From Beroe forskalii (Eukaryota > Ctenophora > Nuda > Beroida > Beroidae): 64,000 bases of DNA. Shown piece by piece: positions 601 to 42,400 of the stretch. The number at the start of each line of letters is the position of its first letter. Within the stretch, counting starts at the first letter, position 1. The stretch spans positions 62,001-126,000 of the forward strand of contig WFMF01000290.1 in assembly GCA_011033025.1 (NCBI GenBank), written 5' to 3'. The notes under the pieces are model-generated. The model ran no database searches. It was not told the origin of the DNA and worked only from the letters and a program-made list of their open reading frames with translations. The translations under genes and the position numbers were made by a program.

Positions 601-945
601 GTAACTACACACCAAAAGCAAAGGTAACTACACACCAAAAGCAAAGGTTACTACACACCAAAAGCAAAGGTAACTACACACCAAAAGCAAAGGTAACTAC
701 ACACCAAAAGCAAAGGTAACTACACACCAAAAGCAAACGTGACTACACACCAAAAGCAAACGTGACTACACACCAAAAGCAAACGTAACTACACACCAAA
801 AGCAAAGGTAACTACACACCAAGAGCAAAGGTAACTACACACCAAAAGCAAAGGTAACTACACACCAAAAGCAAAGGTAACTACACACCAAAAGCAAAGG
901 TAACTACACACCAAAAGCAAAGGTAACTACACACCAAAAATCTAA
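601..945 (+). repeat. 23-bp minisatellite made of the exon/donor junction (array A)
   Basis: About 15 units of GTAACTACACACC followed by AAAAGCAAAG start exactly at the donor of the exon ending at 600. The last ten exonic bases (AAGAGCAAAG) are the tail of the unit with one difference, so every unit recreates AAAG|GTAACT. Minor variants (GTTACT, CGTGACT, CGTAACT) occur in the middle. Confidence 0.85.
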
Positions 946-1914
946 CACGTTTTTTGTGCAAAATCCACTAACCACCGCGTCACGCCACGCGTGAGTGTTG
1001 GCAACCCTCTATTGTGGAGCGTGAGGACCCACCTGGGCACCTGGCTTGCACTACTAGTCTGACTAGTACCCTAAGCTGGGAAGCCAGGTGGTACTACTTC
1101 TCGAGTAGAAAACGAGCTGGGCCCAGGGGTGCCCCTTTTGGTAAGTTTCCTCCAGGCCCGTAGACAACGGGGAGCTGCAGCCCCTCGAAAAATGGAAACC
1201 TCGAGAAATCTTTTACCTTTATCAAATATCGTAATATTTGATTATCTTGTATTACAGCCGATGTTTGAAATGACCTGGAACTGTTATATAACAATTCATT
1301 TTCGGCTCCAGGGGCTAGTATAGGGACAGGGTCCACAACAGAAAGTTTAAGATCCCAGCTATTGATAAATTTTGGCCCTAAAACAGTCTAGAACACCCAA
1401 TTTCCCCACAGAAAATTTTTCCGGGGGCTGCGCCCCAAAACCCTGCGGCTACATAGCTCATTGTGCAGGGCCCTACCCAGAAAAAAAAAAGAAAAAGAAA
1501 AAAAACTTGGCAGCGGGCCTGGTTGCCTCTAAGGCATTGTCCTTCTACTATCGAGTACTTGAATATACCGTGAGTCGATATAGGGTTGTGTTGACATGTG
1601 TTGTTGGTTTTAAGTTCTGTGTCCCTTTGGTAGTTCTTGTTTAGAGATTGATTTCCTTTTAGGGTACTAGTATTCTCGTAAAGGGTTTGATTCTTGTGAA
1701 GAGTTTGATTCCCTCTAGGATGACAGCCGTCTCTGTGGGTTCGTTTAGGCTGTAGATAACATACAAAGACCAGAGTGAGTGAGGGATGATGTGAGAGAAA
1801 CAAAATAAATCTAACGCGGTTCTTGGGTATCTCACGTTATAGACTGGGATCAATATTACAGTATGTTTTAGATTGCATAATTACATGGTTCATAAGCCCT
1901 TATTTGCAACCTTA
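946..1914. other. Intergenic or intronic, no gene seen
   Basis: I find no exon with splice signals and coding character. It holds a GC-rich stretch around 1425-1490 with GGGGGCTGCGCCCC-type pairing followed by an A-rich run. This is probably decayed repeat. Confidence 0.4.
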
Positions 1915-2303
1915 CTCTTCAGTCTCAAATAGACGGGGGTGGGGGCTGTAATAACTGTCTCCCTGTGTAGGTTTTTCAAAAATGTCGTAAAAAGGGGGGG
2001 TTGCAAATAAGAGGGAGGGGGAGGTAAATTTCAATCGAATGGTTTGAAACACCCAAATTGATCAAACATATAGACTCAGATCGAGAAAAAGATCGTAATT
2101 CTGAGAAACAGTTGGCAAAGCTTTCATGTTGCTGCTTGATTTTGCTCAATTCTGACAAAAAATATTAATTTTTCTTTGATTTATGTATGTATTTTTTTCA
2201 AAATTTTCAAAATTTCTAAACGGGGAGGGTGTTAAATAACTGTCCCCACCGTAGTAAAAAAATCCAAAACTGCAATCGCCCCCCGGCTATTTGAGACTGA
2301 AGA
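1915..2303. mobile_element. MITE with terminal repeat CTCTTCAGTCTCAAATAG
   Basis: The 18-bp end CTCTTCAGTCTCAAATAG at 1915 is found inverted at 2286-2303. The 390-bp interior is non-coding, with G- and C-runs near each end. A second copy with the same ends lies at 42419-44150. Comparing the two reveals a nested insertion in the second copy. Superfamily unknown. Confidence 0.8.
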
Positions 2304-2920
2304 GGCTTAAAGGAAATATCGCCTTCAGAAAAATGAGCCAACATTTCATTAATCTACTTGAAATTCAGCCCTTTTGAGGCCCGAGGGCTTATTAATAACA
2401 TGTAAGCGTAATTGAATGCATTCTTAAATACATGTAGCCAAATTAATTCATCATCATTGTGGACTTATACTTCATGAGATAGAAATTTCAGCCTTGTATT
2501 CAAATAATTGATGCTTCATATGTTACAAATTAGGAATTTTTGGCTTTATTTCTTCATTTGACACTTTGATAGCTCTCCAATTACCACTGAACACAATTAA
2601 TTTCAATTGGGGATTGGGTAATTTTCAGAGACGATAATTACTATGACTTTATAACCTATAGAAGTATAGAATTAATCATCATAGCATCATGATAATTTTA
2701 TCAGGTACATCGAATTGATGATCAACTATCTTTCCAAAAAACATTATAGGCCTTGCAAAAATTGCATGCTATGTAAGTATATGGTAATTCAGGTCTAAAG
2801 GTTTCAAGCTATGAAGGGTCAACTAGTGAGCTCCATAGGATGTCTCTTGTATCATTGAAAGTCTTGTTAGTAGCAGTGGCTTTCCATCCGGTATCCATTC
2901 ATTTAAGCTTAATAAATACT
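2304..2920. other. AT-rich spacer, nothing recognised
   Basis: No open exon, tandem repeat or paired ends that I can support. Confidence 0.4.
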
Positions 2921-2926
2921 GAATCA

Positions 2927-3055
2927 GGGCGCTGGCAAGCGCCCGCAGCGCAAGAAAAAGAAAAAGAACGAGGGCATCTGCCCGAAGGGCAGATGCCCTC
3001 GGCCCGAAGGGCTGAGGGCATCAGCAGTCCCGGCCCGAAGGGCCGGGACTGCTGG
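2927..3055. repeat. Cluster of GC-rich stem-loops
   Basis: Consecutive perfect hairpins share the core CCCGAAGGG: one around GGGCATCTGCCC, one around TCGGCCC and one around CAGTCCCGGCCC, each followed by its complement after a GAA loop. They stand out from the AT-rich surroundings. Similar hairpins recur at 54.8-55.14 kb and 62.49-62.54 kb. Confidence 0.75.
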
Positions 3056-3482
3056 TCAGACTCAAAGATGAGCCGTGGCTATATGTTTTTTAATAATAGA
3101 ATAGGTAGCAACAATCCCATCTTTCAATTCTTGAAATGCCAGCGCCCACTATATAAAAATACAGCGATTTCAAAAAAGTCCGGTTTTCAAGTGGCAATTT
3201 AGACCTCTTATTAACATAAGTTAGTCTTGAAAATTTGCACAGGTGTAGTCCGTTACATGATTAATAAACCCTGAAAATTTCATGGAAATCGACCGCACCG
3301 TTTTCGTAGGAAAAATTATCAAAAAATGCCTTAAATCACGAAAATTAGTGTTATCGTCGTCTCTCTCTCGAAACCACCACAGTTTTTATAAATCACTTTG
3401 CGAGAAAACCAAAACAGATATCGTCGTAAGTCCAACGGTATCAGAAACTTTGGCATAGGACACGTGTCGTAGGCTATATTTG

Positions 3483-4275
3483 AATTTTAATATCAAATCG
3501 CTTAATTGGATAATTGGCCAATTAAACCAATTATCGCTTATATCTCGTCTCAGGAATATGGCATTGACTTCATTCTAACGTCATCGTAAACTTTGGCATG
3601 GATTGCGTGAAGTGAGCTATGTAAAAATTTTCATTGCAAATCGCTTAATTGGATAATTGGCCAATTAAACCAATTATCGCTTATATCTCGTCTCAGGAAT
3701 ATGGTATCGACTTCATTCTAACGCCATCGTAAACTTTGGCATGGATCGCGTGAAGTGAGCTATGTAAAAATTTTCATTGCAAATCGCTTAATTGGATAAT
3801 TGGCCAATTAAACCAATTATCGCTTATATCTCGTCTCAGGAATATGGTATCGACTTCATTCTAACGCCATCGCAAACTTTGGCATAGATTGCGTGAAGTG
3901 AGCCTTGTAAAAATTTTCATTGCAATTCGCTTAATTGAATAATTGGCTAATTAAACCAATTATCGCTTATATCTCGTCTCAGGAATATGGTATCGACTTC
4001 ACTCCAACGCCATCGTAAACTTTGGCACAGATCGCGTGAAGTGAGCTATGTAAAAATTTTCATTGCAAATCGCTTAATTGGATAATTGGCCAATTAAACC
4101 AATTATCGCTTATATCTCGTCTCAGGAATATGGTATCGACTTCATTCCAACGCCATCGTAAACTTTGGCATGGATCACGTGAAGTGAGCTATGTAAAAAT
4201 TTTCATTGCAAATCGCTTAATTGGATAATTGGCCAATTACACCAATTATCGCTTATATCTCGTCACAGGAATATG
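3483..4275 (+). repeat. 143-bp satellite, about 5.5 copies
   Basis: The marker GGATAATTGG recurs at 3508, 3651, 3794, (3937), 4080 and 4223, an exact 143-bp period. Each unit contains a dyad TTGGATAATTGGCCAATTA and the phrase TATATCTCGTCTCAGGAATA. Copies differ by a few substitutions. Confidence 0.9.
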
Positions 4276-4383
4276 GCATTATGGTATTGACTTAGATCAA
4301 ACGGCATCGGAAATTTTAAATCACTATCATGAGTCATTGAGTCATGTTGAATGAGATTGGTAATGCAGAATTTGTTCAACAAA

Positions 4384-4733
4384 AAGAATGATATGGTATG
4401 ACAAAAAACAATTGGAAATTGTGTAGGTTCCACATATTTTGTAAATTTTGCGATTAAAAGAGGTGATATGAACTTTAATCGCAGCGCTGGTGTGGTGGTG
4501 GGCTGTAGTTGCAAGGAATATTTCAATTCATAGTAGGTATAAATTCAGTTGAATTTATTAATACATGAATGAAACTACTGAATTGATAAGCCTATATTCC
4601 TTGTACCAAACAGCCCAAAACCACGCCAGCGCTGCGATTAAAGTTCATATCACCTCTTTTAATCGCAAAAATTTACAAGGGCGCTGCGGAACCTACACAA
4701 TTTCCAATTGTTTTTTGTCATACCATAGAACAA
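4384..4733. mobile_element. Small fold-back element
   Basis: Arms at about 4384-4531 and 4590-4733 are inverted copies. Shared blocks include ACAATTGGAAATTGTGTAGG, GCGATTAAAAGAGGTGATAT and GCAGCGCTGG. A 58-bp loop separates them. The right arm contains a short GC insertion (GGGCGCTGCG). No coding capacity. Confidence 0.75.
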
Positions 4734-6268
4734 TATAAATGTTGTTGAACTTATTAAGTTCAAATTTTTTTGAAAAATAAGTCCTCATGAAATAATTAAG
4801 AATACATGTCATTAAGGTGCATTAAGGCCCTTTTTGAGACCTTATAGGGCTTAATTATATGTAAATTAATTTCCTGTCATAAGGTATATCGGAGTATTTC
4901 TATATAATAGGGTCAGTCGGACCCTATAACAGTATAACCACGGCTAATATGCTCGTTTCCGACCCCAAAACTCCGAGTTATTGAGTTGTTCTAATTCTCG
5001 ACCCTACAACCCATATGATAGCTGCTCAGTAAAGAGTCAATCGAATTCGCATAATTTGAAACCGTGAATGAATGGATAAAACACGAAGATTGCTTTCATT
5101 TTCATTACAACTATCAATTTGAAAAACATCAGCAACCTAGATTCCTGTCATTGACCGTGCGGCTGTTGGAATTGAAATGTAACCGCTTAAAAATAAGAAG
5201 CGGTCAGTTCACAGTAAATAATAAGTCGTGAATATTGACCCAAAAGTGTCTAATGACGCATAGCATAATTATGCTTATTGATCACATAACTTAGATTGCC
5301 CATCCCCTGCCCCCTACCTCGTGGCATATACTTATCACGTGACCGTGTGGAGCCCCAATCTTATGCCCCGTCATTATCACCTGCTTGTGTGAATGGAGTC
5401 GATTTGGTACTCAATTTCCACGATCATTCACTGTGATCATTTAAGAGGTCTGGTGGTGATTGGGGAACGTGGGCATTCGATTTCACTTTGATGTTTTCCC
5501 TTCCCCATTTTGTGTATTCAAAAGGCAATGTTAAGGGTTGGCTATGGATAAATTCTGAAAGTTCCCGGGCACTTTTCAGAATTAACAGTACGGATAAAGG
5601 TAGCATACACAAATTGTCCCACAATCCTTCAAAACACGTCCATTTCTAACCCTCAAATTTGCCTTTTTGTATAACAAAAACCCAATTGGAGAGGGAAAAA
5701 CTAAATATGCTTTTTATACGGAATTTATCTTTCTATCACCTGCAAAATATCGCGGGATTTCAACTCCGGTTTTAGCCGTCGTTTGGGTTATGCTGAGCAC
5801 GGGTGCTTAATCCTTTATAATAATGAATTTTAGCATGTTCGTCCTATGCCCCAGCCCCCATATATCATCTGGTTTTTCTTGATTATCTAAACAAAATATG
5901 ATACTCACACAGTCACACGTTGCAAGAGCTCCACCTGAAACATTTTATTAATAGTTAGATTATAGATGAAATTTTAATATTACTCAATGCATGTATTGCG
6001 GTGCCATTTCCGATTTGATAATTTAATTATTCGAGGGAATACCTCCGTTTTAATTTCGGAAGAATGATTATGGACTTATGGACAAGTAATTCCGCCGCAC
6101 AAACAATAAGAGCACCACGATTACAAGGTTTCAAAGTTTGTGAGTTTGTGCGGCACTACCACTTTTGGTAGATATCGATGAGCTGATCACGAATATATCA
6201 CTTTTTTTTCAATTTGACAATGCCTTCCTTGTCCACGGCCTTTTTCTGTTTTGTGACGCCATGTGGTA
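4734..6268. other. Spacer with small dispersed repeat fragments
   Basis: No gene seen. Two copies of a small repeat family (TTTTCCCTCCCC-like run plus TTTGCCTTTTTGT) occur near 5490-5525 and 5650-5700, related to sequences near 20.59 and 55.38 kb. A reversed copy of a repeat shared with 49.17 and 54.11 kb (GATTCCTGTCATTG) lies near 5140-5175. Confidence 0.4.
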
Positions 6269-7533
6269 CCCGGACTTTATGCCGACAGTGGACTATATGC
6301 CGACATTGGATTTCTAGGAACATGTCGGTATATCATCTGTCGGCATAACGTCCGTTTTTGGACTGTATGCCGACAAGTGAATCTGTGCTACCCTTCTGTT
6401 ATTTGGTTTATCGTATCCTTGTGCCTTATCCGATAGTGCATAGCGTCTATTAGGCAGCATTAGGCCAGTTATTACTTATTCGAGAGCTTATCCGGTGGAT
6501 CGCGTGTCATGTCTCGCTAACAAGATGCGTTCGCTGATGAGGCGCTAGATGCAGCTTGTTATTACCTGAAGTAAATGTAGTGATATTTTGTCAAGCTGTG
6601 ATTGAGATTATTGGGTTGTATGAATTAAGAGACGTTTTACGAAGAACAACAGATATCCCATCTACCCCACTACCCTGGAGGACCTGGTCATTCCTCCCTC
6701 CTACCTCACCACCTCTGATGGCGGCAACCTTCTCCTGTGAGATTCCGGATACTCCGCCTTCGGAACAGACAATTCAGCAATTCCCTTGAAGTCCTATCCA
6801 CCTCCCCAAACTTTGTCATAGATGGGACCTTCGAGACCTCACCTCTTCTAACAGCTGCTCACTGTCCATGGACTCCTGGATGATGGCTGGCGGATTCCTT
6901 GTGCCCATGGACTCCTTCCTGGGAAGTCAGAAGCCCTCTACACCAACCTCCTGGAGGAGGTGGACACTCACGGACCCTTCTACTCTGACAGTGTCCTCAC
7001 TGACTACGAGACCGGTCTCCGCAACGCTGTCCTCTCTGTCTGGCCAGGAACCACCACTGCTTCTTCCATTTCAAGCAAGCACTGTGGAGGAAGTTCGCTT
7101 CAACAGACCTGGTCCCTGAGTACAGAGTGGTGGGTTCAGAAGACCGGAAGTCCTTTCAGATGGTAGGAGCTCTCCCCTTTGTTCCTCCCGGTGATGTCGA
7201 CATGGCTTGGCGGCACCTCAAACCTCTCCTTCCCTTGGAACTGGACTCCTTTGCTGGCTGCTTGGAGTACACCAGACTTCTCTTCGACCAGTTGGGGTGG
7301 AACCAGTTCGATGCCACCAGAGATCCCCCTCCTACTGTAGTTTGTAGATTAAAATACTGATCACATTATCTTTGCAATTATATTTAGCACTCAAGAAGTT
7401 CTAAGTTTTAATAAGCCCGGGAAATCATGTCGGCAAAATGTCCAGTGTCGGTATAAAGTCCACTTTTGGACTTTATGCCGACTAGGGGTTTTTCGGAGTC
7501 GGCATATGGTCCAGTGTCGGCATAAAGTCCGGG
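6269..7533 (+). mobile_element. MULE-type DNA transposon, degenerate
   Basis: Ends are inverted: CCCGGACTTTATGCCGACAG at 6269 and its complement ending at 7533. Further subterminal GTCGGCATA-type repeats lie inside both ends. Between them is a broken transposase gene of the Mutator-like (MULE) type. I could not identify a convincing target-site duplication. Confidence 0.8.
6800..7358 (+). pseudogene. MULE transposase fragment with frameshifts
   Basis: Read across frames, the region gives VIDGTFETSP, then LLPGKSEALYTNLLEEVD, then LTDYETGLRNAVLSVWPG, then HHCFFHFKQALWRKF, then MVGALPFVPPGDV. This order is the one found in the MULE transposase domain: DGTF with the first catalytic Asp, a second Asp block, CxxH with xQALWRK, and the LxFVPxxDV tail. 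At least one frame change lies between 6830 and 6915 and another at about 7047-7049. The gene therefore looks inactive, and the amino-terminal part before about 6800 is unreadable. It would have mobilised the surrounding element. Confidence 0.75.
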
Positions 7534-8107
7534 AATCACGTCATGTTACGTGTCAGTTCACGTGACCCGTCTGCTAGTACTTTGTGTGCATTGCGTTACG
7601 TGCACGTCATACCCCACAGATCGCGGTTGTGTGGGGAAGTGACAATCTTAGGTCAAGTGAAACTATTAAGGGCCGTATCTTCATTGATTTCATGATGCGC
7701 CAATGAAAATTGGAATATACTATCATGACCGATTGAAAACTTAGACAATGGCGAAAATCTGCTCCGCTTTTTCTACGCGGCAATTTATAAACATCGTTAG
7801 AGCGGTAAGCAATATCAAATTTATAACATGCCCATCGGCGATCATATATTATTTAGTGCACACGTCATTTTAACATGCTGTATTGTATTATTATATATCA
7901 ATCTATAAATTGATTCCTATAATGTTTTAATGTTATAAAACATTTTTAATATGATCTTGACGTAATTGGAACAAGTAAAAGATAACATGGTTGTACCTGA
8001 TCAAGCGAAGTGCGTCATTAATATTATAGTAAACTATAATTCTTCTCATCGAGATGAAGATGAAAATGCTGCAATTAAAACAACACCGGAAAACTCGTAA
8101 AACTTAT

Positions 8108-8872
8108 GGTCATTGAATACCTAGAGCATTGGTTGACTGGAGCACTGGTTGACCGTAGCACTGGTTGACTGGAACACTGGTTGAGTGGAACACTGGTTGA
8201 GTGGAACACTGGTTGAGTGGAACACTGGTTGAGTGGAGCACTGGTTGACTGGAGCACTGGTTGACTGGAGCACTGGTTGACTGGAGCACTGGTTGACTGG
8301 AGCACTGGTTGACTGGAACCATGGGTGAATGGAACACTGGTTGACTGGAGCACTGGTTGGCTGGAGCACTGGTTGAGTGGAGCACTGGTTGACTGGAGCA
8401 CTGGTTGACTGGAACACTGGTTGACTGGAGCACTGGTTGACTGGAACACTGGTTGAATGAAGCACTGGTTGACTGGAGCACCGGTTGACTGGAGCACAGG
8501 TTGACTGGAGCACTGGTTGACTGTAGCACTGGTGGACTGGAACACTGGTTGAATGGAACACTGGTTGACTGGAGCACTGGTTGGCTGGAGCACTGGTTGA
8601 CTGGAGCACTGGTTGACTGGAACACTGGTTGACTGGAGCACTGGTTGACTGTAGCACTGGTTGAGTGGAGCACTGGTTGACTGTAGCACTGGTTGAGTGG
8701 AGCACTGGTTGACTGTAGCTCTGGTTGAGTGGAGCACTGGTTGAATGGAGCATTGGTTGACTGGAACACTGTTGACTGGAGCACTGGTTGACTGGAGCAC
8801 TGGTTGACTGGAGCACTGGTTGACTGGAGCACCGGTTGACTGGAACACTAGTTGACTGGAACACTGGTTTAT
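8108..8872 (-). repeat. 15-bp minisatellite GAGCACTGGTTGACT
   Basis: About 50 units of GGAGCACTGGTTGACT-type sequence with frequent GAACACTGG and GTAGCACTGG variants. The unit is a multiple of three with no stop codon on the minus strand, so three minus frames stay open for over 700 bases. This explains long apparent reading frames without a gene. Confidence 0.95.
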
Positions 8873-8908
8873 TGGTAAAGATTGAATCACTGCATTTATG
8901 ATTGATTA

Positions 8909-9071
8909 GGGGATCGTTCACATATTATTACGTAATCAATTTTTGGCTGATTTCAACCCCCCCTCGTAATCAAGTTTACAGTAGTTGTATTTGTTACAAT
9001 AACATGTAACGTAATCATTCGGAAACCCCCTCCACCCCCTCTAGGTGATTACGTTAATTGTGAACGGTCCC
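8909..9071. mobile_element. Harbinger-like MITE nested in the minisatellite element
   Basis: Ends GGGGATCGTTCACATATTA and, inverted, TAATTGTGAACGGTCCC pair with each other, followed inside by ACGTAATCA on both sides. TTA precedes the left end and CTA follows the right end. The ends resemble those of the element at 14300-15528, suggesting one family. Confidence 0.65.
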
Positions 9072-9084
9072 TAGGGCACAGGTT

Positions 9085-9430
9085 GTATGGTTCAACCAGT
9101 ACTGCAGTCAACCAGTGCTCTATTCCACCCTTTTGCACCAGTACTCCAGTCAACCAGTGCTCCATTCACCCAGTAATTCATTCATTCACTATTCCAGTAA
9201 ACCAGTGCTTTGAGTATCAACCAGTTTGGAGCACTGAATGACTGGAGTACTCATGATAGCAGTGCTCATGTAACTCAATACTCCAGTCATTCAGTACTCC
9301 AATAAACCAATAATATTCCAGTCATTCAGTACTCCAGTCATTTAGTGCTCTAATTAGCCAGTGTGGAGTATGGCTGAGTGGAGTACTGGCTTAACCAGTC
9401 TATCAGTGCTTCACTCAACCAATGCTCTTC
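9085..9430 (+). repeat. Degenerate minisatellite, opposite orientation
   Basis: AGTCAACCAGTGCTCC and AGTACTCCAGTCATTCAG variants repeat irregularly. This is the reverse complement of the 8108-8872 unit and forms the other half of the fold-back. Confidence 0.75.
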
Positions 9431-9875
9431 TCAAGGGACATAAGTTTCGCGAATTCTGCGGTTTTATTTTAATTAATTGAAGCATTTTCATTTTCATCAG
9501 GTGGTACTTGACGAAGAGAATATAATATAGTTTGTTATAATATCAATGACGCACTTCGCTTGATCAGATACAACCGTCTCATTCAACTTGTAATTGTTCC
9601 AATTACTTCCAGATCAAATTAAAAATGTTTTACAACATTATTAATATGTAGATTGATATATAATACAATACAGTAGGTATGTTAAAATGACGTGTGGTGT
9701 GTACTAAGTTATAGGTATATAATATATATTACCGATGGGCATGTTATAAAGTTAACATTGATGATGTTTATAAATTCGCATGTAGAAAAAGCGGAGCAGT
9801 TTTTCGCCATTGTCTAAATTTTCAATTGGTCATGATGATATATTCTGATTTTCACTGGCTCTTCATGAATCAAGT

Positions 9876-12531
9876 AGAATAAGAATTCCGCTGAATGTGA
9901 TAGTACTGTGATAAACTGGAAAAAGTGAACTTGTTCGTGTTGTACCGCACTGCTACAAAGCAATTACTGTTGTGGACATGGTCTGTACGGTAACAAGCAA
10001 TATATATATTTTTTAAAATTTCGAATAAAATTATCAATGCTGCTCGTTACTTACGTGTGCTTGCAGACTTCACTAAGCATCAAGTTTTGTGCGGGTTACG
10101 AATTGGCAGTGCATATCAACGCAATAACTTTTTCAATTTCAAGTTATGGTCGTCCATTCGTCTCTTCTTCAATGATGGGAATGTTTGTCAATAGGTTAGA
10201 TTTGATAAATTCCAATCTGGAATTTGATTAAGACTTTTATAATGTAGGGAGCAATTTACGTTTTATTCATAATAACCCTTCTGACCATCCTTATATTATT
10301 GAATATACGATATGGTGCGTGCCAGGACAAAGTATGACCTTGACTTAAGTGTGATTTTTGCCTTTTTGGAGATTTTCCTTATCATTAATAGCATTTCATC
10401 AACAATTATCATGAAAAAACCTGATTGATATAATATGTTACTATCCAGCGCCAAGTAAACGGGGGAAACGTTAGCAACAATTTTTGTTTTTTCCCTGCTT
10501 AAGACACTTATTTGGCAACCTCCCCGTTTGCATAATTTTTTGATTTTTAAAATAAATTTTTCTGAAAAGCTGATATTAAAAAACAGAATTAACCATAAAA
10601 TAATAAATATATCTTGCTACATAATAATATGGGTGGTATGAAAGTATACCAATGACCCCCTGCTGACCCCCTGCTGACCCCCTGCTGACCCCAGGTGCTA
10701 AACCCCTGGTGAACCCTGCTGACCCCCTGGTGAACCCTTAGTGACTCTCTGGTCAACTCTACTGACCCCCTGTTGACCAATCACCTGTTTATTTGAGATT
10801 CACCCGTTTGCCGCAATTTTTCTAAATCACTACCGAAAGACTTTATCTCGACTCCCCCCCCCCCTCTATTTGGCACTGCAGAGTACTTTGGCACCGTTCC
10901 ACAGTTGTAGTCTTTCATAATGGATGCGTTAAATTGCACTTTTCTTGAATGCTTTTACTTGAATGCTTTATTATATTACTTGTGCTTACTGCTTTTTTGT
11001 TCCAAACTGTTTGCTGTTAAAAACACCCAGATTATTTGCATTATAACTTTATAAGATTTTATTTTCAATAAACTTGCCAATATTTTCTTTATTAAAATAA
11101 TCATCTGCCAATAATACAGGTTTAAAGTCTATGAAAAGTTAAATTTATAAAAATCGATGATTTTGGCGCTCTTCCTCATCGTTTCATCATTTGGTAAGTT
11201 TTAATTCATAATGTTGTTCAAAATTATCCTGAGTTTTGATTATTGATAGGCTTCCGTATGATTCCACTCAACTTTTATTTCAGATCTATGATGAAATATA
11301 TCGGAATCTATTGAGCATTTACGACAAAAATTGAAATAGGACTTGTAATATTTGTATCAGTCAAACAATATTTATCAGTTAAACAATATTTATCAATTTT
11401 ATGGTGCATTACAATCATTTTATAGAATTAATAATTATATCTGAAGAAAACTTGCTTCCCCTCTGAGATTTGGCTCTGATATAGTATGATAATTCAACAT
11501 ATTTTTACTAGATATAAGCCTGAGCAGTCATGTCACAATTACTGTTCAAGGATGTGACTTATTTTGATCACCTTGTTCAGCCAGTTAGACAAAAACGCTC
11601 TATACCTACCCATAGTCCGCATAAGGGCCAACGCAAATTCCCTGTTTGTAAATTGGACAATGACCTATCCAGATCCAAACTACAGACATATTGCCAATTT
11701 AGACTCACTTCTGCACCTTCAAGCGAGCATATATTATGTATATCAGCTTACGTATTAAGATTTTATAGTGGAAAATTTTGAAGTGATAATATATCTAACC
11801 AGGACCATCAGTGAGATCTAAGAACTATAGCTATCAGATGGCTGATGTGTCAAGATATGGGCTACATATGATAGATAAATAAATAAATTAATAAATCAAT
11901 AATAACTTTATTAATTCTTTAAAATCAGTAAAAACCTATTTAAAAAACCTATAAATATGCATCTTCAAAAACCTATCTATGCATCTTTGATATGAAGGCA
12001 ACTTGTCAATAAACGGTCCAGATCAATGAAACATAATCTGCACATGCGATTTGAATAATCAAATGCCATTGCAATGGTGGCAGCCTGGCCACTGTGAACA
12101 TCCTTGAGCAATAACTCAATAACCAAGAGGGTGCTGTGTCAAAATCAAGATGCAATAGCGCAATACTCCTGTTTCCAGACGATTCTCAGAGGAGCTCAGG
12201 ATAAATTAAACAGCATTGAACAAAAATAGTCATATCCGTTTATCTATTGATATATGCCCTATTGTCCTTATTTTCCTAATGAGGGATATTTATATGGGAT
12301 ATACTGTAATCGTGATTTTACGTATTTTGGTGCAGTTGAGTTACTTGCGGACTTCATTTTTCCAAAATGAAAATGGATTTATACCCTCTCGAAAAATTCT
12401 CGAATGTCTAATACATTACTAGTAATATGGAAATTTCATATCTTACTCGAAAACTGTTTCAGGCGGAGCTGTAGCGACTTGTGAGTATCATATTTTGTTT
12501 ATCATAGATAATATATAAATGTACTTTAGCG
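9876..12531. other. Spacer, no gene supported
   Basis: AT-rich, without exons I can defend. A short tandem of GACCCCCTGCT units occupies about 10651-10765. A reading frame of 64 codons around 11564-11758 lacks splice context and is unsupported. Confidence 0.4.
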
Positions 12532-12702
12532 AAAGACCAGGAATTAACATATCTCTATTACATACGAATGAAATGAGTATGTAATAGGATATAAATATTG
12601 AGTAGCTTGCTACGAAATATTTATATCTAATTTATCACGCGACACTCGAAGAGTGGAGCCGTGATAAATTTAGATATGCTATGAATGGCTTTCGCTAAAG
12701 TA
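12532..12702. mobile_element. 171-bp MITE with TACTTTAGCGAAAG ends
   Basis: TACTTTAGCGAAAG at the left is matched by CTTTCGCTAAAGTA at the right. Inner dyads around TATCACG and AAATATTTATATC add further pairing. Non-coding. Confidence 0.75.
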
Positions 12703-12746
12703 ATATAATAGTCGAACGTGTTATGCATATTTGTAACACGTAGGTT

Positions 12747-13162
12747 ATATCGTCACCTACAAGCTAGAAGGTCTTAAGTGCACTTAAGACCTTCTCTAGA
12801 TCTCTGCAGGAGTACATTCCAAGGGCTCAGAGGGACCTCCTCAAACGATCTTTGTACTTCTATCACCGTTTAATTCCAATTTATTCACTTTTATCTAAAA
12901 GGACTTAAATTGGCTTAAAACCTTTTTGCGATATTTTACTGGGCCTATTCCGAAAAACAGAAAGGACTTACATCAACATAAGACCTTTTGTCGTCATATG
13001 TTAACATGTTATAGAGTATTTTAGGAAATCATCAATAAAAAGCATAAAGGTCTTAAGTTAACTTAAGGCATTTTGCTGATTTTTTGTTCAAAATTGTTTT
13101 TCTGCGATATCTCAAAAGTACAAACATACACATAAGACCTTTTAGCTTGTAGGTGACGATAT
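12747..13162. mobile_element. 416-bp element with ATATCGTCACCTACAAGCT ends
   Basis: The terminal inverted repeat ATATCGTCACCTACAAGCT is perfect at both ends. The interior carries about half a dozen ACTTAAGACCTTTT-like repeats in both orientations, including a perfect AAGGTCTTAAG dyad close to the left end. Confidence 0.8.
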
Positions 13163-15528: not shown

Positions 15529-15556
15529 TTATTATTCGCTTATCTAACGTCCCGTA

Positions 15557-18122: not shown

Positions 18123-18193
18123 GTAAGTGGGTCATAGCCAATAAAGAGAGGCAATTTACATGCAAAATTATCCTTGGCTACTCCTTCTTGAGT

Positions 18194-31376: not shown

Positions 31377-32392
31377 GTGAGTAGCTGTCCTTAATTTCCA
31401 AGCCACAAATTCCAAGCAATCATATTTGATTAGAACTTGCATCTGTGAAAAATTCATAATAAAGGTTTCAGTGGGCCAATCGATTCAAGCTTATTATATC
31501 AAATCTGATATTACCCATGATCTTTCAAACATGCTGCCGCGCAATGAAAGTTGAAACGAAATTTTGAGATAATTCGATAACTATTCTCGAGAATTCTATG
31601 TATGTTGTAACTTTTTCAAAGATCAAGGTTCCAACATTTGGTGTGGTGAAACAAACTAATACCAATGAGGGGTCGAAGTTGGTAGCTACTTCTCAGCAGA
31701 ATTGACCACTGCAGTCAATCTTTAAGTAAAATCAGGAACGGCCAGTTCACCTGAGGTGTGACTGAATACCACAGAGGCTCGAAGTTTGAATTCATGCTTC
31801 CCCAGCGGAAGGACGGTACTACACTTTAAGCTAATGGGCTAATGGTCATAGTTCATACCACCCTATAGTAATTGAAGGAGGTTCCAGGTAACTGCGGGGG
31901 TATCGGCGAGATGCGTAAGGAAAAAAGTGGACGTGGCCAATATAAACCGAAATGTGGTTTTCGGGCTTAGGGAATACTTACAATCGATTTCTCGTACCAA
32001 AAACATATTATGTTAATAGTATAATCATACCTTATTTTTTATTTCCATCGTAACATTAACTTTTATTAACAATTTAATCAAAAAGAGGGTGTAGACAAAA
32101 AGGGGTGTGGCCACCCAGAGTTTTCCAGACACCAAAAAATTTAAACAAAAATTTTGGGTGACCCTAGGGACCCATTAGAGTCAATTGACACACTGAAACC
32201 TTTGTCAAGAATTTTAAAGAGTTATGTCAGATTATTCCCTTATTGTAATAACTCACATTTTCATTGAGCTTCGTTCCATCTTTCTTTTTCTATCGAATTT
32301 GTGTTACTCGTAAGCGATATAAGGATTGTCCTCTGTGATTGACCAAGTTTTGTATAAGAATATCCTACCAGCACTATTCACCACATCCTCAG
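31377..32392 (+). other. Intron of the Ig gene
   Basis: No exon or tandem repeat recognised. Includes two GGGTGTGGCCA-like segments near 31930 and 32100. Confidence 0.4.
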
Positions 32393-32831
32393 TCGCCGAT
32401 TGGCTCGCTGAATATCACGACCTTCGTCGACTACTGAAGTCACGTACTAACTTTCACGAGCTACACGGACAACGGCAATTACTCCTGTGTCGTGCACTAC
32501 GATGAGCAGACGGTGGGGGCGTCACTCTTGAAGAGGGCAAATCACACCAGTGCACAGGCAGAGATCCTCATCTGGGGTATGTTGTCAGGGTTAGAGTCGA
32601 GGATTTGGGTAAGGTTGGGGTAAATTAAGGTCAGGGAACAACGATACAGTGTCGTGCGAGGTGAAATGTCGCTGATGAAATGTCGTGCTTCCCTTCAGTG
32701 TGTTGTAATGTCTTTACCATTCCGACTTCAGGGCTTGTCCTTGCATATAGTTATCTTGCCTCCAACCCACTGTACACTTTCCATGATTGAATGATATAAC
32801 ACCTCACAACTTGATGTCTCCCATTCTCCAG

Positions 32832-33092
32832 GCATCGAGACGACTGAAGAGCAAGTTGAGATCGGCACCAATGGCACCCTGACCTGCGTGGCTTACGGGC
32901 TGTCCAGTGCCACCACCTCCAGCATATGGACAGGCAACTTGACGTCCACCTTTGCTTATGACACGTACGATGGTACGGCCTTCTCCGAGACACGGAAACT
33001 AGAAATCGACACGAGCGGCCTTACGGTGGCTGCCCATACATACTCGTGCAATATCTCAGCCGTCGACACCCCGGTCATGCTGTACACCTATT
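32832..33092 (+). CDS. Intact Ig exon, paralogue of 20224-20490
   Basis: The exon is 87 codons, phase 1 to 1, and reads GIETTEEQVEIGTNGTLTC, then VAYGLSSATTSSIWTGNL, ending VMLYTY. The exon at 20224-20490 has YGLSSAT, WTG and a YTY ending at the same positions. The following exon (33315) likewise matches 20664. An exon pair was therefore duplicated within the gene. Confidence 0.8.
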
Positions 33093-33629
33093 GTGAGTAG
33101 AGGATATACCTTATCAGCTTATCTGTTTTCCGCTTATCGGTTATCAGTTGTTTGGTGCGAAATGTTGCCAGACTGTTCAGATTACCGTTTCATGGGTGCT
33201 CAATTTATTCATATCGGTGGGATGCAGCTTTTTCGCAAAATTCATTTATATACTTAAATACTAGTACGTAGCTTCTTCTTGTTATTTTCTAAATCATAAT
33301 AAAATCATCTGCAGCGGTTGATGTGGAATCAGATAAGAATATCGTGACGGAAGGACCAGACAGTTACCTGTGTAGTGACGTACACAGCACCAATATTAAC
33401 GTGGAAAGACCCGTCCAGCTCCGGACATAACTGAAAGTGACGGAGGCAATTATACCATCAACACTACTGCCACCTCGACACAACTGTCGTCCACTTGACG
33501 ATCCACCTGCCGATATTGTCGGCAATGTCGTCCCCATCGGAGTATTCATGCGTGGTGGACGCAAACTTACTGTCTCCAGCAATTCACCTATTGAGCTACA
33601 ACAACGTTACTCACCCCATGACGTTAGGG

Positions 33630-34789
33630 TAACCAAAAATCAGCTATTTTGCTGCTATAATAAGTGAATTCATCAAACATAACATGAAAATTTTTGTTTG
33701 TATTAATTTTTATTCACGGAATGGGTTCTGAAAATGTCAAAACTGGATCATCAACTCTATTTCCATTTTTATTTCGAAATTTTAAAAACAGATATGTATC
33801 CAAATTGACTTTAAAAATTTCTATGGGGATAATGATCTTTGATAAAGCTGCTAAGAAAATCATCGCATTGTCCAGACGCTTGAGCAATAAAATATGGCCT
33901 CTACAGCAATATTTTATGATCTTTCATTAAGATCAGCTAAATTAACTATCAGCGCCTAACGTAAGCAATTAACCAATGATAGAGTGGTGTGATGTAATCT
34001 TCAACGACTACCATATTAGCCAATCACTATCATTAAAATCATTATTAAAAAAATATCATTATTTAAACTTGCTCAAACTCATCTTAGAATAGTGCAACTG
34101 GCCAGTATGAATAGATACATATAGAACACAAAACATGATTCATGTGACAAGCAGCCAACAGGTGGCTTATAAGAGGATTGTAAAAGCTTAATAGCTGAGA
34201 ATAATAAATAAGACAGACGAGGCCCAATCCATGAAGTTGATGAGAATGACGTGATGATGGTCCACAATGACCACAAACACCGCGTTTTCTCGCACATAAA
34301 TAACATGATTAAAAAACCTCTTCTCTCTGATGAGGATATAGAAAAGCAAACATGCAAAGTGCCTTTCAAGATGATGCTCAGAGACTTTTCGTGATATTAG
34401 TTTGTGAATGGTAATATTCTAACTGTCAATGATCAATACAATGATGATATTAAATCTTCTGAACTTCTTTTGGAAGAGTATGTTTTTTGTGAAAATTGGA
34501 AGTTTTAAGTTTTACTAAATAAGAATCTTGTCTGAGCTCACTCCACACTCCCTGCTATTCCTTTCACGGTGAAATTCTTTGAGTTGATTGAGGTACGTAC
34601 TATGTATTCTACGGTTTTGTTTTCATTTGATTTCACCAGTTGGAGAACATTGGGACGATATCTGAAGTGCGCAATCACATTTTCTGAATACTTTGTCGAC
34701 CTGTGGCCTGCGTAGACACGACTCTTCATTTTGTCTTGCTTGTAAGATTTATCTCTGACTCATCATCAAGTGATGTTGATAGAACTTCC
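33630..34789. other. Region between converging genes
   Basis: It lies between the last Ig exon (+) and the stop of the EGF/Gly-rich gene (-). A + strand stretch near 34200-34385 reads DENDVMMVHNDHKHRVFS and onward, which looks like a coding relic, but I cannot assign it. No clear polyadenylation signal can be tied to either gene. Confidence 0.35.
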
Positions 34790-36442
34790 TCACTCACTCC
34801 CAAGCCTCACTATCGTGACGTGTCCGGGTCCAATGGCACTTGCCGTGCTGATGCTGTAGGACAGAGCGTCTTGGCTGACGAATGAGCCCCCGCCCCCTCC
34901 TGTTTTGTGCGCTGTTCCTTTCCCAGTCCGCGAGCACTTCCCTGCGCCGCCAGAGTAGCCACCTCCGCCGCCCGGCGACCAGGTCCCGCGCCCTCCGCCG
35001 CCGAAGCCGCCGTACGCAGTGCGTCCGTAGTCAACGAACTGGACTCGCTGCCCCATGCCGCCTCTGAGATCCGGCCAAGGGCTTCCGCCTGTCTCTTGAA
35101 TCTGAAGGGTGAATCGTAAATCTGAAGTCAAACGGATGGAAGAAATTATAGTTTAGGCTCAAATCTTGTTAGGTTAGCTCTGAAAATTTGAACTTTTAAC
35201 TGCGTTAGACCTCGTCTTTATATCGTTCTACTGTTGTGTGGATAGGGATTACCTGATGTCCGTCGTTGAATCCGTCTTCTCCGGCCGAGTAGAAGCCGGC
35301 CCCTGCTCCTCCCCCAAATCCGGGGCAGGTGTCTCCCCCACTCCCACCTGATCCACCGAACACGTCGTTAGTCAGGGAGTGAAAGTAGCTGCCTGCCTCT
35401 GAGGTGCTAGCGTTCAGACCTGAAGTGGAAGGCAGTTAGACAGTCAGTCTTACCTGTACACACTGCTGGTAGGAGGGAAATTCAGTCATGGCTTCTTGCC
35501 CAAATTCTCGTATCTTCACACACCCACGAGATGGTATTCTCTACATTCCTTAGAATATTGACCAACGTAAAAACAGATCTACTCGCCTGCTCCACTCACC
35601 TGCTCCACTCTTAGCACCCACCTGGGCCGTTGTCACCCGCTCTTAGTACCCACCTGGGCTGTTGTCCCCCGCACTTAGCACCTACCTGGGCTGTTGTCCC
35701 CCGCACTTAGCACCTACCAGGGCTGTTTTCCCCGCACTTATAGTACCCACCTGGGCCGTTGCCCCCCGTACTCAGTACCAACCTGGGCCGTTGTCCCACG
35801 CACTCAGAACCCACCTGAGCCGTTGTTCCCGCTCTTAGTACTCACCTGGGCCGTTGTCCCCCGCTCCGCCGCCTCCCCCAGCCACCAGGAGGGGCTCGTT
35901 GTCCCCGGAAACTACGAAGGTGCCTCCTCCGCCGCCGCACACCACACTCTTGCTTCTTTTGCCGTGCAGGTCGTCGCTGAAGTTGTAGCAGGATCCCTCC
36001 TGCCCCACCGCCACTTTGAGGTAGGTGGCGCCTGTGAGGGTCACGGTGGCGCTCACAGTAGTAGGGTAGCCGCCGGGCTGGTTGAATGTTCTGCAGGACC
36101 CACCGCTTGAGCCACGAACTGGAGAGAATTTGATGCTAATACTCAGAAAACATTGACCCTCCCCCTATCAAAGTATGTTATGCTGTAATGCAAGGACGGA
36201 CAGCACACTCAATCCTGACCCCCTATCTACCACACACGTGTACCTGTTATCTTGACTCCTATTCCTACACACTACCTGTCTACCTGTTATGAAGTAGAGT
36301 CCGGTGTGCTCGATGTAGACGCTCTGGATGCCGGAGACCACGCTCACATCCTCGTACTCCGTGTAGTAGAGGGCACACTCGCTGTGGGCCGGGCCCGTGG
36401 GACCCCGGGCCCCACACGTGGACAGCTCGTATAGCACTGTGT
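34790..36442 (-). CDS. ALK-type glycine-rich domain exons
   Basis: Four exons encode [19 protein letters not shown], then [18 protein letters not shown], then [17 protein letters not shown], then [20 protein letters not shown], then [20 protein letters not shown], then GGGGGYSGG and [13 protein letters not shown] with stop. The CGA-G--GP start, GxQ-(W/Y) strand, VGQ-G and long Gly runs match the Pfam-type Gly_rich (ALK/LTK) domain. The region is GC-rich compared with the window. Confidence 0.8.
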
Positions 36443-39400
36443 CTGAAAGAGGGTAATTGGAGGGCTTTCATGTGTGACAATATAATGATAACAAGAAGTA
36501 TTGAAACTTGAAATAGTTACATTGTGATTACTAGTATTTACTGATAACACTCAGATGCCAGCTTATGAGCTGCGATGACAAACAGTAAAGAATGGGCATT
36601 ATGAAAAGAATTCATTTCTTACCATTCCCCCATTCCCAAGTTCCTGGTTCCAGCTGCCATTGGTCACTACTCACCTTGACAGAAGTCTCCTTGGTAACCA
36701 GGCAGACAGGCACACGTTTCCATGGCAACAGTGGAGCATACTCCCCCATTCTGACACGTGTCTGCTTCGCACTCAACCGGCTCCTTCTGTTGGACGGGGA
36801 TTATTCTTTGTTCAAATAGGAAACCCCCACATCAATAGTTGGTAATTGGAACCACGCTGTCCCTGTTCCCAATGAACTTCTTATCATCATCACTTCCTGT
36901 CTGTCTAATTAAGTAATTAGCCTGCTACTTCATGTCATTTTCACTGTGATTCATTCCATACCTAATACTTCTACATGACGTGGTAGCACGACACTCCATC
37001 TCACGACACTTCAACTCCTTGCCCTGACCCTAACCAACGGTGGCGCAATGTTGATTTTTGAGCCGGGGAATTTTTCCCTAGAAAATTAGCGCTAATTGAA
37101 TTATGGTAATTTCATTATAGCAGTCCAACAACATTTTTGATCCCAAAAGACAAACAGTAACGTAGTTGTATGAAACATTAGCTTCCCGCTCCCAGTCCCA
37201 AGGTTGTTTGTTTTCCTAAAGCAATCAGGTCGGACCAATATCTGCATGTTCTCATGTTGCAGCATATCAAAAATGATAGGCATATGGAAGTGAAATCATA
37301 ATATTGTGTTATTGCATGGAATTACCGATTGATAAAACCGCCTATCAAATGAAAAAGTCGTGTACACTTACAGTAACACACTGAATCTAGTTTGTATCGG
37401 TTAATGATGGTCATAATGTTATTTGGTCAAGGTAAAGTAGCCTTGAAATAACAAAAGCAAATTTTTACACAATCATAGATTTGCCAGAAAGTGTAACTTG
37501 AAAAGTAAGGCTCAAAGCTGGACACGATTTGCGATTTTAAAATTTGTCAAATTTGAGCCGGGGCAAAAGGATACTTTTCCCCGGCTTCATGAATAAAGCC
37601 GGGGAAAAAACCCCCTGTCCCCGGCTCCTGCTCCACCCATGACCCTAACCATAACCCTAGAACCATTATCTTAACCCCGACAATAGCTCGGAGTTGAAAT
37701 ACTACGAGATAAATTTTCGTGAGATGAAATGTCCGTTCCCCTTTCATGGCATTTTCCTCTATCTATATATGGGGGTATTACTTGGTAATGTTCTGCTGAG
37801 CATTGGTGTCCCTACATTTCCCTCCTTTCCCTCTACATTCTCCTCAACATGTCCCTTTAAAATTTCCTCCAATCCCCCCCATTTCCTGGATATAACTTGG
37901 CAAGTACCTGGCACTTGTCGCCTGAGCACTGACAGGAGAAGGAGTTTCCTCCGTCCAGGGAGACGCACTCCCCGCTACACTGCACTCCTCCGCACAGCTC
38001 ACAGTAGTCCCCGTCAAACCCTGCTTTGCACTGGCATGTGGTAGTGTCACATGTTAGAGTGACATCGTAATGTTGCTTGATAGTGTCACGTGGTATTGTC
38101 ACGTGGCGGTGTCACGTGGTAGTGTCACGTGGTAGTGTCACGTGGTAGTGTCAGGTGGTTGTGACACGTGGTAATGTCACGTGGAAGTGTCACGTGATTA
38201 AACGCATGTTAGTGTCAAGTGAAATAATATAAAGTGTGTGTTAGTGTCACGTGTTTGAATCGTGATTGAAATAGTGGTAATCGAACAATCTTACCACGAA
38301 CTGCAACAAATAAAACTAGTCTGCCCCCTACCTGCGTTGCTAAGCAACATGGCCCCTACCTGCGTTGCAAAGCAACATGCCCCCTACCTGCGTTGCAAAG
38401 CAACATGCCCCTTCCTGTATCGCTAAGCAACATGGCCCCTACCTGCGTTGCCAAGCAACATGCCCTTTCTTGCGTTGCTTAGAAACATGCCCCTACCTGC
38501 GTTGCAAAGCAACACGCCCCTACCTGTACTGTGTTGCTAAGCAACATGCTCCTATCTGTGTTGCAAAGCAACATGCCCCCGATCTGGGTTGCAAAGCAAC
38601 ATGCCCTTTCTTGCGTTGCTTAGAAACATGCCCCTACCTGCGTTGCAAAGCAACACGCCCCTACCTGTACTGTGTTGCTAAGCAACATGCTCCTATCTGT
38701 GTTGCAAAGCAACATGCCCCCGATCTGGGTTGCAAAGCAACATGCCCCTACCTGCGTTGAAAAGCAACATGCCCCCTAGTCCCTAACTCCGTTGCAAAGC
38801 AACATGTCCACCACCTGTGTTGCCAAGCAACATGCCCCTACCTGCGTTGCTAAGCAACATGGCGCCTAGCTCACTGAAAAGCAACATGCCCCTACCTGCG
38901 TTGCAAAGCAACGTGGCGCCTGCCTCACTGCTAAGCAACATGCCCCTACATGCGTTGCCAAGCAACATGTACCCTTCCTGCGTTGCTAAGCAACATGCTC
39001 TTACCTGCGTTGCTAAGCAACATGCTCCTACCCGCGTTGCTAAGCAACATGCCTCGCTCTTCCTGCGTTGCTAAGCAACATGTCCCCTTCCTGCGTTGCT
39101 AAGCAACATGCTCTTACCAGCGTTGCTAAGCAACATGCTCCTACCTGCGTTGCTAAGCAACATGCCCCCTACCTACGTTGCTAAGCAACATGCTCCTACC
39201 TGCGTTGCTAAGCAACATATCCCCTTCCTGCGTTGCTTAGCAACATGCTCTTACCTGCGTTGCTAAGCAACATGCTCCTACCTGTGTTGCTAAGCAACAT
39301 GCGCCTACCTGCGTTGCACTGGCAGATGAAATCCTCGCCGTCCTCCAGACACCTCCCACCGTTGAGACAGGGACTGAAGCTGCACCAGTGCTGCGCGTTG

Positions 39401-42400
39401 CATGTCCTCCCTGTCCAGCCCTCCTCACAATCACACTCGTACCTGTGAAGGGGGGCCTGCTGTTACTTCAGGTACTCCTATTTTCTCTTTGTTTTCATCT
39501 GCAAACCGCAGTACAGAAGTCCTTTACTTTGATTAACCATGTCTATTGCTAGTAGGCAAAAGTGGGTAGCGAAGCGATTTAATTCATAATGAACTATTCA
39601 GCGATCAGCAAATTCAGTATTTACCCAACGTCGAGTTCGTGACACTTTCCGTTGTGGCAGGGATCCGAGGAACAGTCCTCAATCAGGGCGCAACCCCCGT
39701 CTACTATCTTTCCTGAGCCGAAATATCCGTCCTGAAATGTAGATCAGTTATCTAACTTCAAAGGCATGGCAATTTGGTGTAGTAACATAGAAGCTGGATA
39801 GTTGGGCAAACCGCTGTTTTGTGCCTAGTATAGTTCAAATAGCATGAGTACATAGTTGCATTACCAATGGTTAATGTTCAGCTGCGAAGTTGCGTTACCA
39901 TGTTATTCGAACATACGCAGAGTTGCGTTACCATGGTAATTGCGTTACAATGTGGCATGTAGTTGCGTTACCATGGTAATTTCGATTCCATGGTAACTGG
40001 ATGAGTACTCACTGGGCACGTGCATTGGTAGGATCCAGGAGAGTTGTGGCAGCTGACGGTATCACTAGCGCAGTAGTCGTACATGTTTGTGCACTCATCA
40101 ATATCCTGTTGAGATTAAACAAAACGTGGAATTTGGTTGCAGATAGTTGTAGCACGATTGAGTTTAACATAGCGGCGGCAAGTTTTCATCATGATAAAAC
40201 CATGCTAACAAATCACCTGTGCGCAAGGTTCGTCGTTGTTGTTGAACGTCCAGCCAGGACAGCTACAGTGGAAATGTGGGACTCCTTTCTTCCTTCTGTC
40301 GAGTGACACGCATTCCCCTGCAGTTTTCACAATCAATAACGTTTAGGGATAAACATTGATTAGCTGATTGACACGATTTAGGTATGCGACGTGACCATTG
40401 AAAAGCCATACTGTTACATCATTGCGTTTAACAGCAGTGAATTACTCAATTCCATACTCCAAATCATGAACTATGAAGTAGGTTCACAAGTGTTGTTGCA
40501 GCATGAACTATGGCATGTAGGTTCATATTGTAGTATTGTTACTAACCGTTGTTGCAAGGGTTGGGTGAACAGTCGTCGTAGCGGTCCTGACACTGGGACC
40601 CGTAGAAATCCAGCGTACACACACAGGTGTAGGAGCCAATGGTATTCACACAGCGCCCTGAACAAATACTTAAGGCGCAAAAAACACGAATAATTGGAAT
40701 TCCGATCTGGTAAAAACACGAATAAGTGGTTAATGAAGAAATTACAATTGTTTCACGCTTGATGATCTCATATGGTATCAGACAGGGCCTTTGGGGACCG
40801 ATAATAATAATTGAAAAACTAAACTTCCCTCACACCCTGCTAAGTTGCTTCTATATTTACAATAGTTATTAACACTCGAGTAAGGGCGTGGTTATTAACA
40901 CTGTCATGAGGGTGTGGTTATTAACACTCCCATAAGGGTGTGGTACCCCCAACATCTACCCTCCTTTATATCCTGACATATAATGTTGTTCTTTCCTACC
41001 GTTGTTTTTGCAAGGGCTGCTCTGACACTCGTCTATGTCTCGCTCGCACTTCGTTCCGGTGTACCCTTCGTTGCAGATGCACTTTCCTTCCTGTCAAGGT
41101 TATCATTTGCTTAGTTTATTTAGTTCATGTCAGGACCGTTATCTAAGTAACTTATTGCCTAAAAAGAGTGATCCTGCTCATGCACTAACCGGCGTGAGAG
41201 TGCCCCTGTTCATGCACTAACCGGCGTGAGAGTGCCCCTGTTCATGCACTAACCGGCGTGAGAGGGCCCCTGTTCATGCACTAACCGGCGTGAGAGTGCC
41301 CCTGTCCATGCACTAACCGGCGTGAGAGTGCCCCTGTCCATGCACTAACCGGCGTGAGAGTGCCCCTGTTCATGCACTAACCGGCGTGAGAGTGCCCCTG
41401 TTCATGCACTAACCGGCGTGAGAGTGCCCCTGTTCATGCACTAACCGGCGTGAGAGTGCCCCTGTTCATGCACTAACCGGCGTGAGAGTGCCCCTGTTCA
41501 TGCACTAACCGGCGTGAGAGTGCCCCTGTTCATGCACTAACCGGCGTGAGAGTGCCCCTGTTCATACACTAACCGGCGTGAGGGTGCCCCCGTTCTTGCA
41601 CTAACCGGCGTGAGAGTGCCCCTGTTCTTACACTAACCGGCGTGAGGGTGCCCCTGTTCTTGCACTAACCGGCGTGAGAGTGCCCCTGTTCATACACTAA
41701 CCGGCGTGAGAGTGCCCCTGTTCTTACACTAACCGGCGTGAGGGTGCCCCTGTTCTTGCACTAACCGGCGTGAGAATGCCCCTGTTCATGCACTAACCGG
41801 CGTGAGGGTGCCCCTGTTCTTACACTAACCGGCGTGAGGGTGCCCCTGTTCTTGCACTAACCGGCGTGAGAATGCCCCTGTTCATGCACTAACCGGCGTG
41901 AGGGTGCCCCTGTTCATACACTAACCGGCGTGAGAGTGCCCCTGTTCATGCACTTACCGGCGTGAGAGTGCCCCTGTTCATGCATTCCTCGGAGTAACTG
42001 CAGGTTTGGGGCGATGACGTCATAACACACCGCAGCTGGGTTTCGAGGGTGTGCACTTTGGAGAGGAGACCTTCCTTGGTGTGTTCCAACTCAGTGATGT
42101 GTAGCGTCAACTCGTTTATCTGGTGACTCATCTGGGTGAGACGCTGGTAAATTGCGAAAAATTAAGAAATTGTTTCAAACTCTCTATTTTTGAAGCTCTT
42201 AAATCATGTTTTTGTCTTTGATCGACCTTTGTTGGTGACAGAGTTTACTATGTCACGATTCTCACTTTTTAGTTATGGTGGTTAGGAAAACATTTGCAAA
42301 CAGGAAAGCATTTCACCTGTGAAATTATATCTGAATGCAGGTGGAGTGTCTTTTGGATCTGAAATTAAGAAATATTATCACGTTACGTAGGTACTACATC

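Follow-up and report, generated by a model that had tools for sequence, protein, structure and literature searches.

Tandem arrays spanning exon/splice-donor junctions in the ctenophore Beroe forskalii as probable tolerated minisatellites

Why would an intron open with many copies of its own splice donor? In a 64,000-nt stretch of the Beroe forskalii genome (hereafter the window), a first-pass annotation had described four introns that begin, at authentic 5′ splice sites, with tandem arrays (A to D) whose repeat unit contains the last exonic and the first intronic bases. Both parts of this description were confirmed. All four arrays open at the ends of coding exons, as judged by an open frame together with homology for B, C and D and by weaker evidence for A, and in each of them the unit spans the junction, comprising the last 9-27 exon bases and the donor. 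The array positions obtained with TRF agree with those of the annotation within about 30 bases, and the introns begin at 601 (+) for A and at 41957 (-), 39308 (-) and 35845 (-) for B, C and D, respectively (Table 1). The units of B, C and D are unlike one another.

Table 1. Positions of the arrays and associated features, given in the coordinates of the window unless a locus is named; a slash marks the splice site.
Feature	Position	Strand	Description	Basis
Array A	590..939	+	23-bp unit × 15.2; 11 exon bases + donor GTAACT	TRF
Array B	41165..41984	-	32-bp unit × 25.6; 27 exon bases; later copies GTTAG	TRF
Array C	38325..39317	-	27-bp unit × 35.6; ~9 exon bases; palindrome in unit	TRF
Array D	35610..35864	-	32-bp unit × 8.0; 19 exon bases	TRF
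Coding exon before array A	397..600	+	cysteine-rich; open in three other copies	exon finder score 30.9
Gene with EGF repeats and glycine-rich region	34790..42143	-	13 exons seen, 5′ end not defined	
Exon 1 seen	41958..42143	-	donor CCG/GTAAGT	open frame, Bolinopsis alignment
Exon 2	41000..41090	-	joined to exon 1 across array B	open frame, Bolinopsis alignment
Exon 7	39309..39442	-	donor CAG/GTAGGC	open frame, Bolinopsis alignment
Exon 8	37908..38020	-	joined to exon 7 across array C	open frame, Bolinopsis alignment
Exon 11	35846..36118	-	donor CAG/GTGAGT	open frame, Bolinopsis alignment
Exon 12	35253..35419	-	joined to exon 11 across array D	open frame, Bolinopsis alignment
Intron 7, last 20 bases	38021..38040	-	17/20 identical to exon 7 end	
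Putative acceptor-straddling array	L012:8526-10000		32 bp × 42.5	
Putative acceptor-straddling array	L021:1763-2402		65 bp × 8.3	

Arrays B, C and D lie in a single gene, whose 13 exons, placed by splice consensus, form a single open frame that encodes 652 residues and closes with a stop. The product contains EGF repeats (Pfam, E 9e-31) and an ALK/LTK glycine-rich region whose Pfam score is slightly below the cut-off, and the best of its 147 homologues, a Bolinopsis microptera protein, is 54% identical over 100% of the query. This alignment is gapless at junctions B, C and D, and at B and C the closest gaps lie 5-8 residues upstream. Since one frame runs through all 13 exons, the product carries EGF domains and the Bolinopsis alignment is gapless at the junctions, donors B, C and D are taken as secure. 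If the donor chosen by our exon finder were taken for array C instead, which is placed two 27-bp units downstream, the exonic part of that array would be 63 bases.

The exon that precedes array A matched no family in Pfam. Three other copies (L002, L004 and L006) also keep this frame open, and each is followed by a similar array; the array itself is present at four places in the genome, and copies of its own exon adjoin it in the three that were read. Pairs of exon copies differ by 1-9 amino-acid-changing and 1-6 silent codon differences, so that selection on them is weak or unclear. The arrays at these paralogues, which are not alleles, have from 13 to 41 later copies.

It had also been claimed that the pre-mRNAs would carry from 7 to about 36 consecutive decoy donors. 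This holds in that many later copies keep the GT, but not every copy does. In array A the GT is kept in 14 of 15 later copies, 10 of them as strong as the authentic donor. In array B all 24 later copies have GT, but always as GTTAG, GTAAG being found only at the exon. Array C has lost the GT in 14 of 35 later copies, while in 14 of 35 the donor score equals or exceeds that of the authentic site; a separate count found AG/GT in 17 of 31 palindromic copies. By eye, GT is present in 7 of 7 later copies of array D and GTGAGT in none of the 7, and all those that could be aligned (6/6) score below the exon donor GTGAGT. Outside the window, later copies with a donor strength like that of the authentic site make up 9 of 13 at locus L009 and 22 of 29 at L011. 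In B, D and L021 no other copy is as strong as the authentic donor, and the weakening of decoys is limited to some arrays. In the putative acceptor arrays, most copies upstream of the exon equal its own acceptor in strength (39 of 41 at L012 and 5 of 7 at L021).

The annotation had proposed a scan of all introns of the genome; the check made here covered approximately 0.1% of it (264 kb of 216 Mb), together with two pattern scans. The sample consisted of 20 stretches of 10 kb (200 kb; 264 kb with the window) and was not strictly random, as 8 stretches were evenly spaced on C802, 7 others were taken at a fixed offset and 5 came from a seeded random list. We found 107 tandem arrays of at least three copies, covering 31.7 of the 264 kb (12%, window included). 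Exons were predicted with a finder of our own, trained on the same sequence including the EGF gene and started from preset matrices for donors and acceptors and preset residue frequencies. On the EGF gene, which belonged to its training data, the finder placed 11 of 12 exons exactly and ended the twelfth at a later copy of array C. At score 20 it called 35 exons in the reversed sequence compared with 84 in the real 264 kb. Among the repeat units, 10 of 123 contained a donor motif scoring at least 8, compared with a control mean of 3.8 and a maximum of 9 in 100 draws, and without the window the count was 7 of 97 (control mean 3.0, maximum 8), a weak excess.

At scores of at least 20, arrays straddled 7 of 84-85 predicted donors over the 264 kb, compared with 1 of 35 in the reversed control, in a count that includes the window, which was chosen for its cases. 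When the window was excluded, donors were straddled in 3 of 58 cases (L009, L011 and L021) compared with 1 of 26 in the control, and the figures for acceptors were the same (3/58 and 1/26). At score 10, donor straddling was alike in the real (10/252) and reversed (9/223) sequences. Over the 264 kb, acceptors at score 20 were straddled in 3 of 84-85 cases and in 3 of 35 in the control; as these counts are equal, they do not establish that acceptors behave like donors. The corresponding values at score 14 were 4/133 and 5/92, or 4/98 and 2/71 without the window. Relative to uniform placement in the 200-kb sample, we observed 3-4 straddled donors where 0.5-1.3 were expected (3-6-fold, P 0.01-0.04) and 2-4 straddled acceptors with the same expectation (0.5-1.3, P 0.04-0.22), while arrays centred in predicted exons were below expectation (7 vs 12.9 and 4 vs 9.1). 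This junction excess is suggestive. Of the recurring, junction-aimed mechanism that the annotation had favoured, the recurrence is borne out by unrelated genes, as described below, but the aim at the junction is unproven, with a 3-6-fold excess on 3-4 cases and with octamer and nonamer counts that point in opposite directions.

We rejected a reading restricted to donors in view of the putative acceptor-straddling arrays at L012 and L021, even though acceptor cases over the 264 kb are no more numerous than in the reversed control. The L021 exon chain (995 residues) returned no homologue in our search, and its donor and acceptor arrays are placed by frame alone. The L012 exon has a weak Sema match (Pfam, E 0.021). 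The L009 exon has a pattern that we take to resemble a Sushi domain; Pfam gave no match for a 34-residue piece of it. Three of the junction cases (L009, L011 and L012) come from C802.

Whole-genome scans extended the comparison. Three tandem copies of the octamer AGGTRAGT gave 1262 matches compared with 4312 for the backward pattern, and a stricter nonamer gave 63 donor triplets compared with 13 backward, in ten arrays. Matches are not equivalent to arrays, and their assignment to arrays is ours. We rejected these counts as proof of donor enrichment, given that a few big arrays dominate both the octamer and the nonamer counts among the matches listed; within the sample, 41 of 63 backward octamers lie inside arrays. 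Among the octamer matches listed there were seven distinct arrays, two of them at exon ends backed by a domain (an M1 peptidase, Pfam E 2e-6, and a WWE domain, E 3e-16), three at coding-like exons of no known domain and two elsewhere. The exons of the middle group (L031 and L034/L035) had no Pfam match; on our reading their arrays start at the exon end with the first copy, the finder having ended the exons at later copies. Nine array starts were read from the nonamer scan, the second cluster on C248 being left out of the ten arrays: one, with a unit that includes about 40 exonic bases, lies at an exon coding for a NEK1-like kinase (E 1e-10), five lie elsewhere, and three reads (L041, L042 and L043) were still within the array and are left out of the 13 resolved cases. 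Of the 13 donor-rich arrays that could be resolved, 6 begin where an exon ends, among them three with domain support (L029, L033 and L039), and 7 lie away from exon ends. For comparison, 3 of 15 AGGTRAGT octamers outside arrays in the sample were at predicted exon ends, a difference that is not meaningful at these numbers.

Reading of L030, L032, L037, L038, L040, L044 and L045 showed no array start at an exon end. The open frame that runs through the L030 repeats was discounted in spite of a finder score of 57.9. The L032 array (C44, ~114 kb) is rich in AGGTGAGT and stands before a replication-factor-C exon on the opposite strand (E 5e-11). L034 and L035 (C77, ~417 kb and ~455 kb) are one gene region copied on opposite strands, with long donor arrays of 36-37 bp in which CAG/GTGAGT seems to be formed where adjacent copies meet.

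Junction arrays thus recur in conserved genes unrelated to those of the window, encoding an M1 aminopeptidase, a NEK-like kinase and a WWE-domain protein. For the M1 gene we set the acceptor TTCAG/GTGCGA by eye, where it fits the reading phase, although the exon finder had chosen another; with it, the alignment of NGVK/VR to aminopeptidase N is gapless at the junction, and a one-residue gap lies some residues upstream. The E-value of the chain went from 3.7e-5 for the first exon to 4e-34 for the longer query, which is mostly an effect of query length. The repeated exon parts encode residues common to other animals, namely DNGPG (Bolinopsis protein), YCEGGDL (NEK1) and NGV (aminopeptidase N). 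The units of B, C and D and of the M1, NEK-like and WWE arrays all repeat the ends of conserved exons; the exon is thus older, and copying ran from exon to intron.

We consider that the junction arrays are probably the outcome of general minisatellite birth that is tolerated across the junction, with the decoys as a passive by-product. Replication slippage or break repair would create short tandem duplications almost anywhere, of which those inside exons would mostly be purged by selection. A duplication across a donor would be tolerated because the exon-proximal copy retains both the exon end and the site; further copies would then land in the intron, where the array could grow. Splicing would stay at the exon-proximal site by exon definition and, in some genes, also as the strongest copy. 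This reading agrees with the amount of array sequence, with the deficit of arrays in exons, with straddling at predicted acceptors too, with donor-rich arrays being as common off exon ends as at them (7 and 6 of 13), with an octamer that is not especially tandem-prone by match count, with the exon-to-intron direction of copying, and with authentic donors that outscore all other copies in B, D and L021. Against it stand the 3-6-fold donor excess, the nonamer triplets, the acceptor cases that over 264 kb only equal the reversed control, and the strong later copies of A, L009 and L011; as most later copies in these three have authentic strength, simple tolerance requires a positional choice of donor.

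Alternatively, tandem duplication may begin preferentially at exon-intron junctions, for instance at breaks linked to transcription or R-loops. The donor excess in the 200-kb sample, the 7 of 84 straddled donors (window included) and the nonamer triplets would fit such a hotspot, as would the fact that three of one gene's twelve introns carry arrays. However, the cases are few and the window was selected on account of them, exon prediction is noisy (35 reversed vs 84 real exons at score 20) and gives like donor counts at score 10, the octamer triplets point in the opposite direction, and 7 of the 13 resolved donor-rich arrays lie off exon ends, so we think it unlikely. It is equally doubtful that a mechanism coupled to transcription or splicing repeatedly amplifies donors in the lineage of this ctenophore, such that several percent of introns open with decoy arrays and are spliced correctly only through the spliceosome's preference for the exon-proximal copy.

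Some introns might instead have originated when part of an exon was duplicated in tandem (the Rogers/Hellsten model), with array growth following. The best candidate is intron 7 with array C, since the similarity of the intron's end to the end of exon 7 is far above that in other introns, the same 20-base comparison giving no more than 10 identities in any of the 11 other EGF-gene introns and no more than 12 in 58 predicted introns. A further candidate is the L011 intron, whose sequence looks like a run of 19-bp units from donor to acceptor. The introns with B and D, however, match their own exon ends before the acceptor at just 6 and 5 of 20 positions, and as the matching stretch of intron 7 also codes for the EGF motif CQC.AG, exon repetition could explain the match; we hold an origin of this kind to be improbable. 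Intron 7 has arrays at both ends, as a 13-bp array of 12 copies (38038-38196) lies just upstream of its acceptor. At L011, positions 6906-7770, the intron is apparently made of 19-bp units with AG/GT from near the donor through the acceptor.

That later copies act as putative alternative donors, yielding isoforms with extra junction copies as in human IFI6, where two downstream repeat units are reportedly used as donors (PMC4526556), would accord with the many strong later copies (10/15 in A and 22/29 in L011 at least equal to the authentic donor), with a 27-bp unit in C whose frame is open over about three copies, and with the exon finder's own choice of a C copy two units downstream, but it seems very improbable, given that later B copies are all GTTAG (24/24), that GT is missing in 14 of 35 later C copies and that later C donors would presumably add residues within an EGF domain.

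How do these arrays relate to systems already described? An IFI6 minisatellite supplying several splice donors is said to have been reported by Turri et al. in 1995. The available account of this human minisatellite describes several donors and the use of two downstream repeat units (PMC4526556). It resembles the arrays described here in that the repeat unit contains the splice donor and in that arrays cross the exon-intron boundary (B, C and D by homology; L029, L033 and L039 as domain-backed cases). The IFI6 case, however, concerns one human gene with downstream units reportedly in use, whereas here there are many arrays in several genes, with up to about 36 copies, known from DNA alone. In human segmental duplications, internal tandem repeats at exon-intron boundaries are described as forming novel introns (PMC2812944). 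These too are minisatellites, with a mean unit of about 30 bp, that alter intron structure; they comprise 27 intron modifications in recent paralogues, with about 4 repeats and transcript evidence, whereas here the arrays are longer, also occur in conserved single genes, and come from DNA. Intron gain by tandem duplication has been described for ATP2A1, in fission yeast and in a potato RdRp (PMC4974935). Tandem copies of a splice-site segment are common to both, and the end of exon 7 is repeated before the acceptor of intron 7, but the introns of B and D have no exon-end repeat before the acceptor and the introns here are not proven new. Introner-like elements place one family in many unrelated introns; array A is present at four places, three of which were read and lie next to copies of the exon that precedes it, and the units of B, C and D differ. 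The ctenophore Hormiphora has a similar share of tandem repeats (13% of its genome by TRF, compared with 12% in our sample), and the accessible parts of that paper make no mention of splice junctions (PMC8527503). A literature search, thin on subscription journals, found no account of junction-straddling arrays in a ctenophore.

Both isolated minisatellites at splice junctions and the gain of introns through tandem duplication are already known, and the arrays reported here look like a variant, on a large scale, of something already described and not a new splicing device. If about 1 donor in 20 (3/58, with a noisy finder) precedes tandem copies of itself, many of them intact, the genome would serve as a natural experiment on spliceosomal choice between identical donors and on the lengthening and origin of introns. 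The choice of a decoy by the exon finder at array C is a warning for gene predictors.

Other repeats in the window may be useful for guiding further studies. Array units bearing a palindrome of the type GTTGCTAAGCAAC or GTTACCACGGTAAC occur at 38325-39317, 39923-39996, 59459-60172, 62106-62421 and 62953-63238; we take these palindromes to recall RFX X-box sites, a putative likeness. Two arrays in opposite orientation, at 52226-52559 and 58734-58991, apparently share one 75-bp unit.
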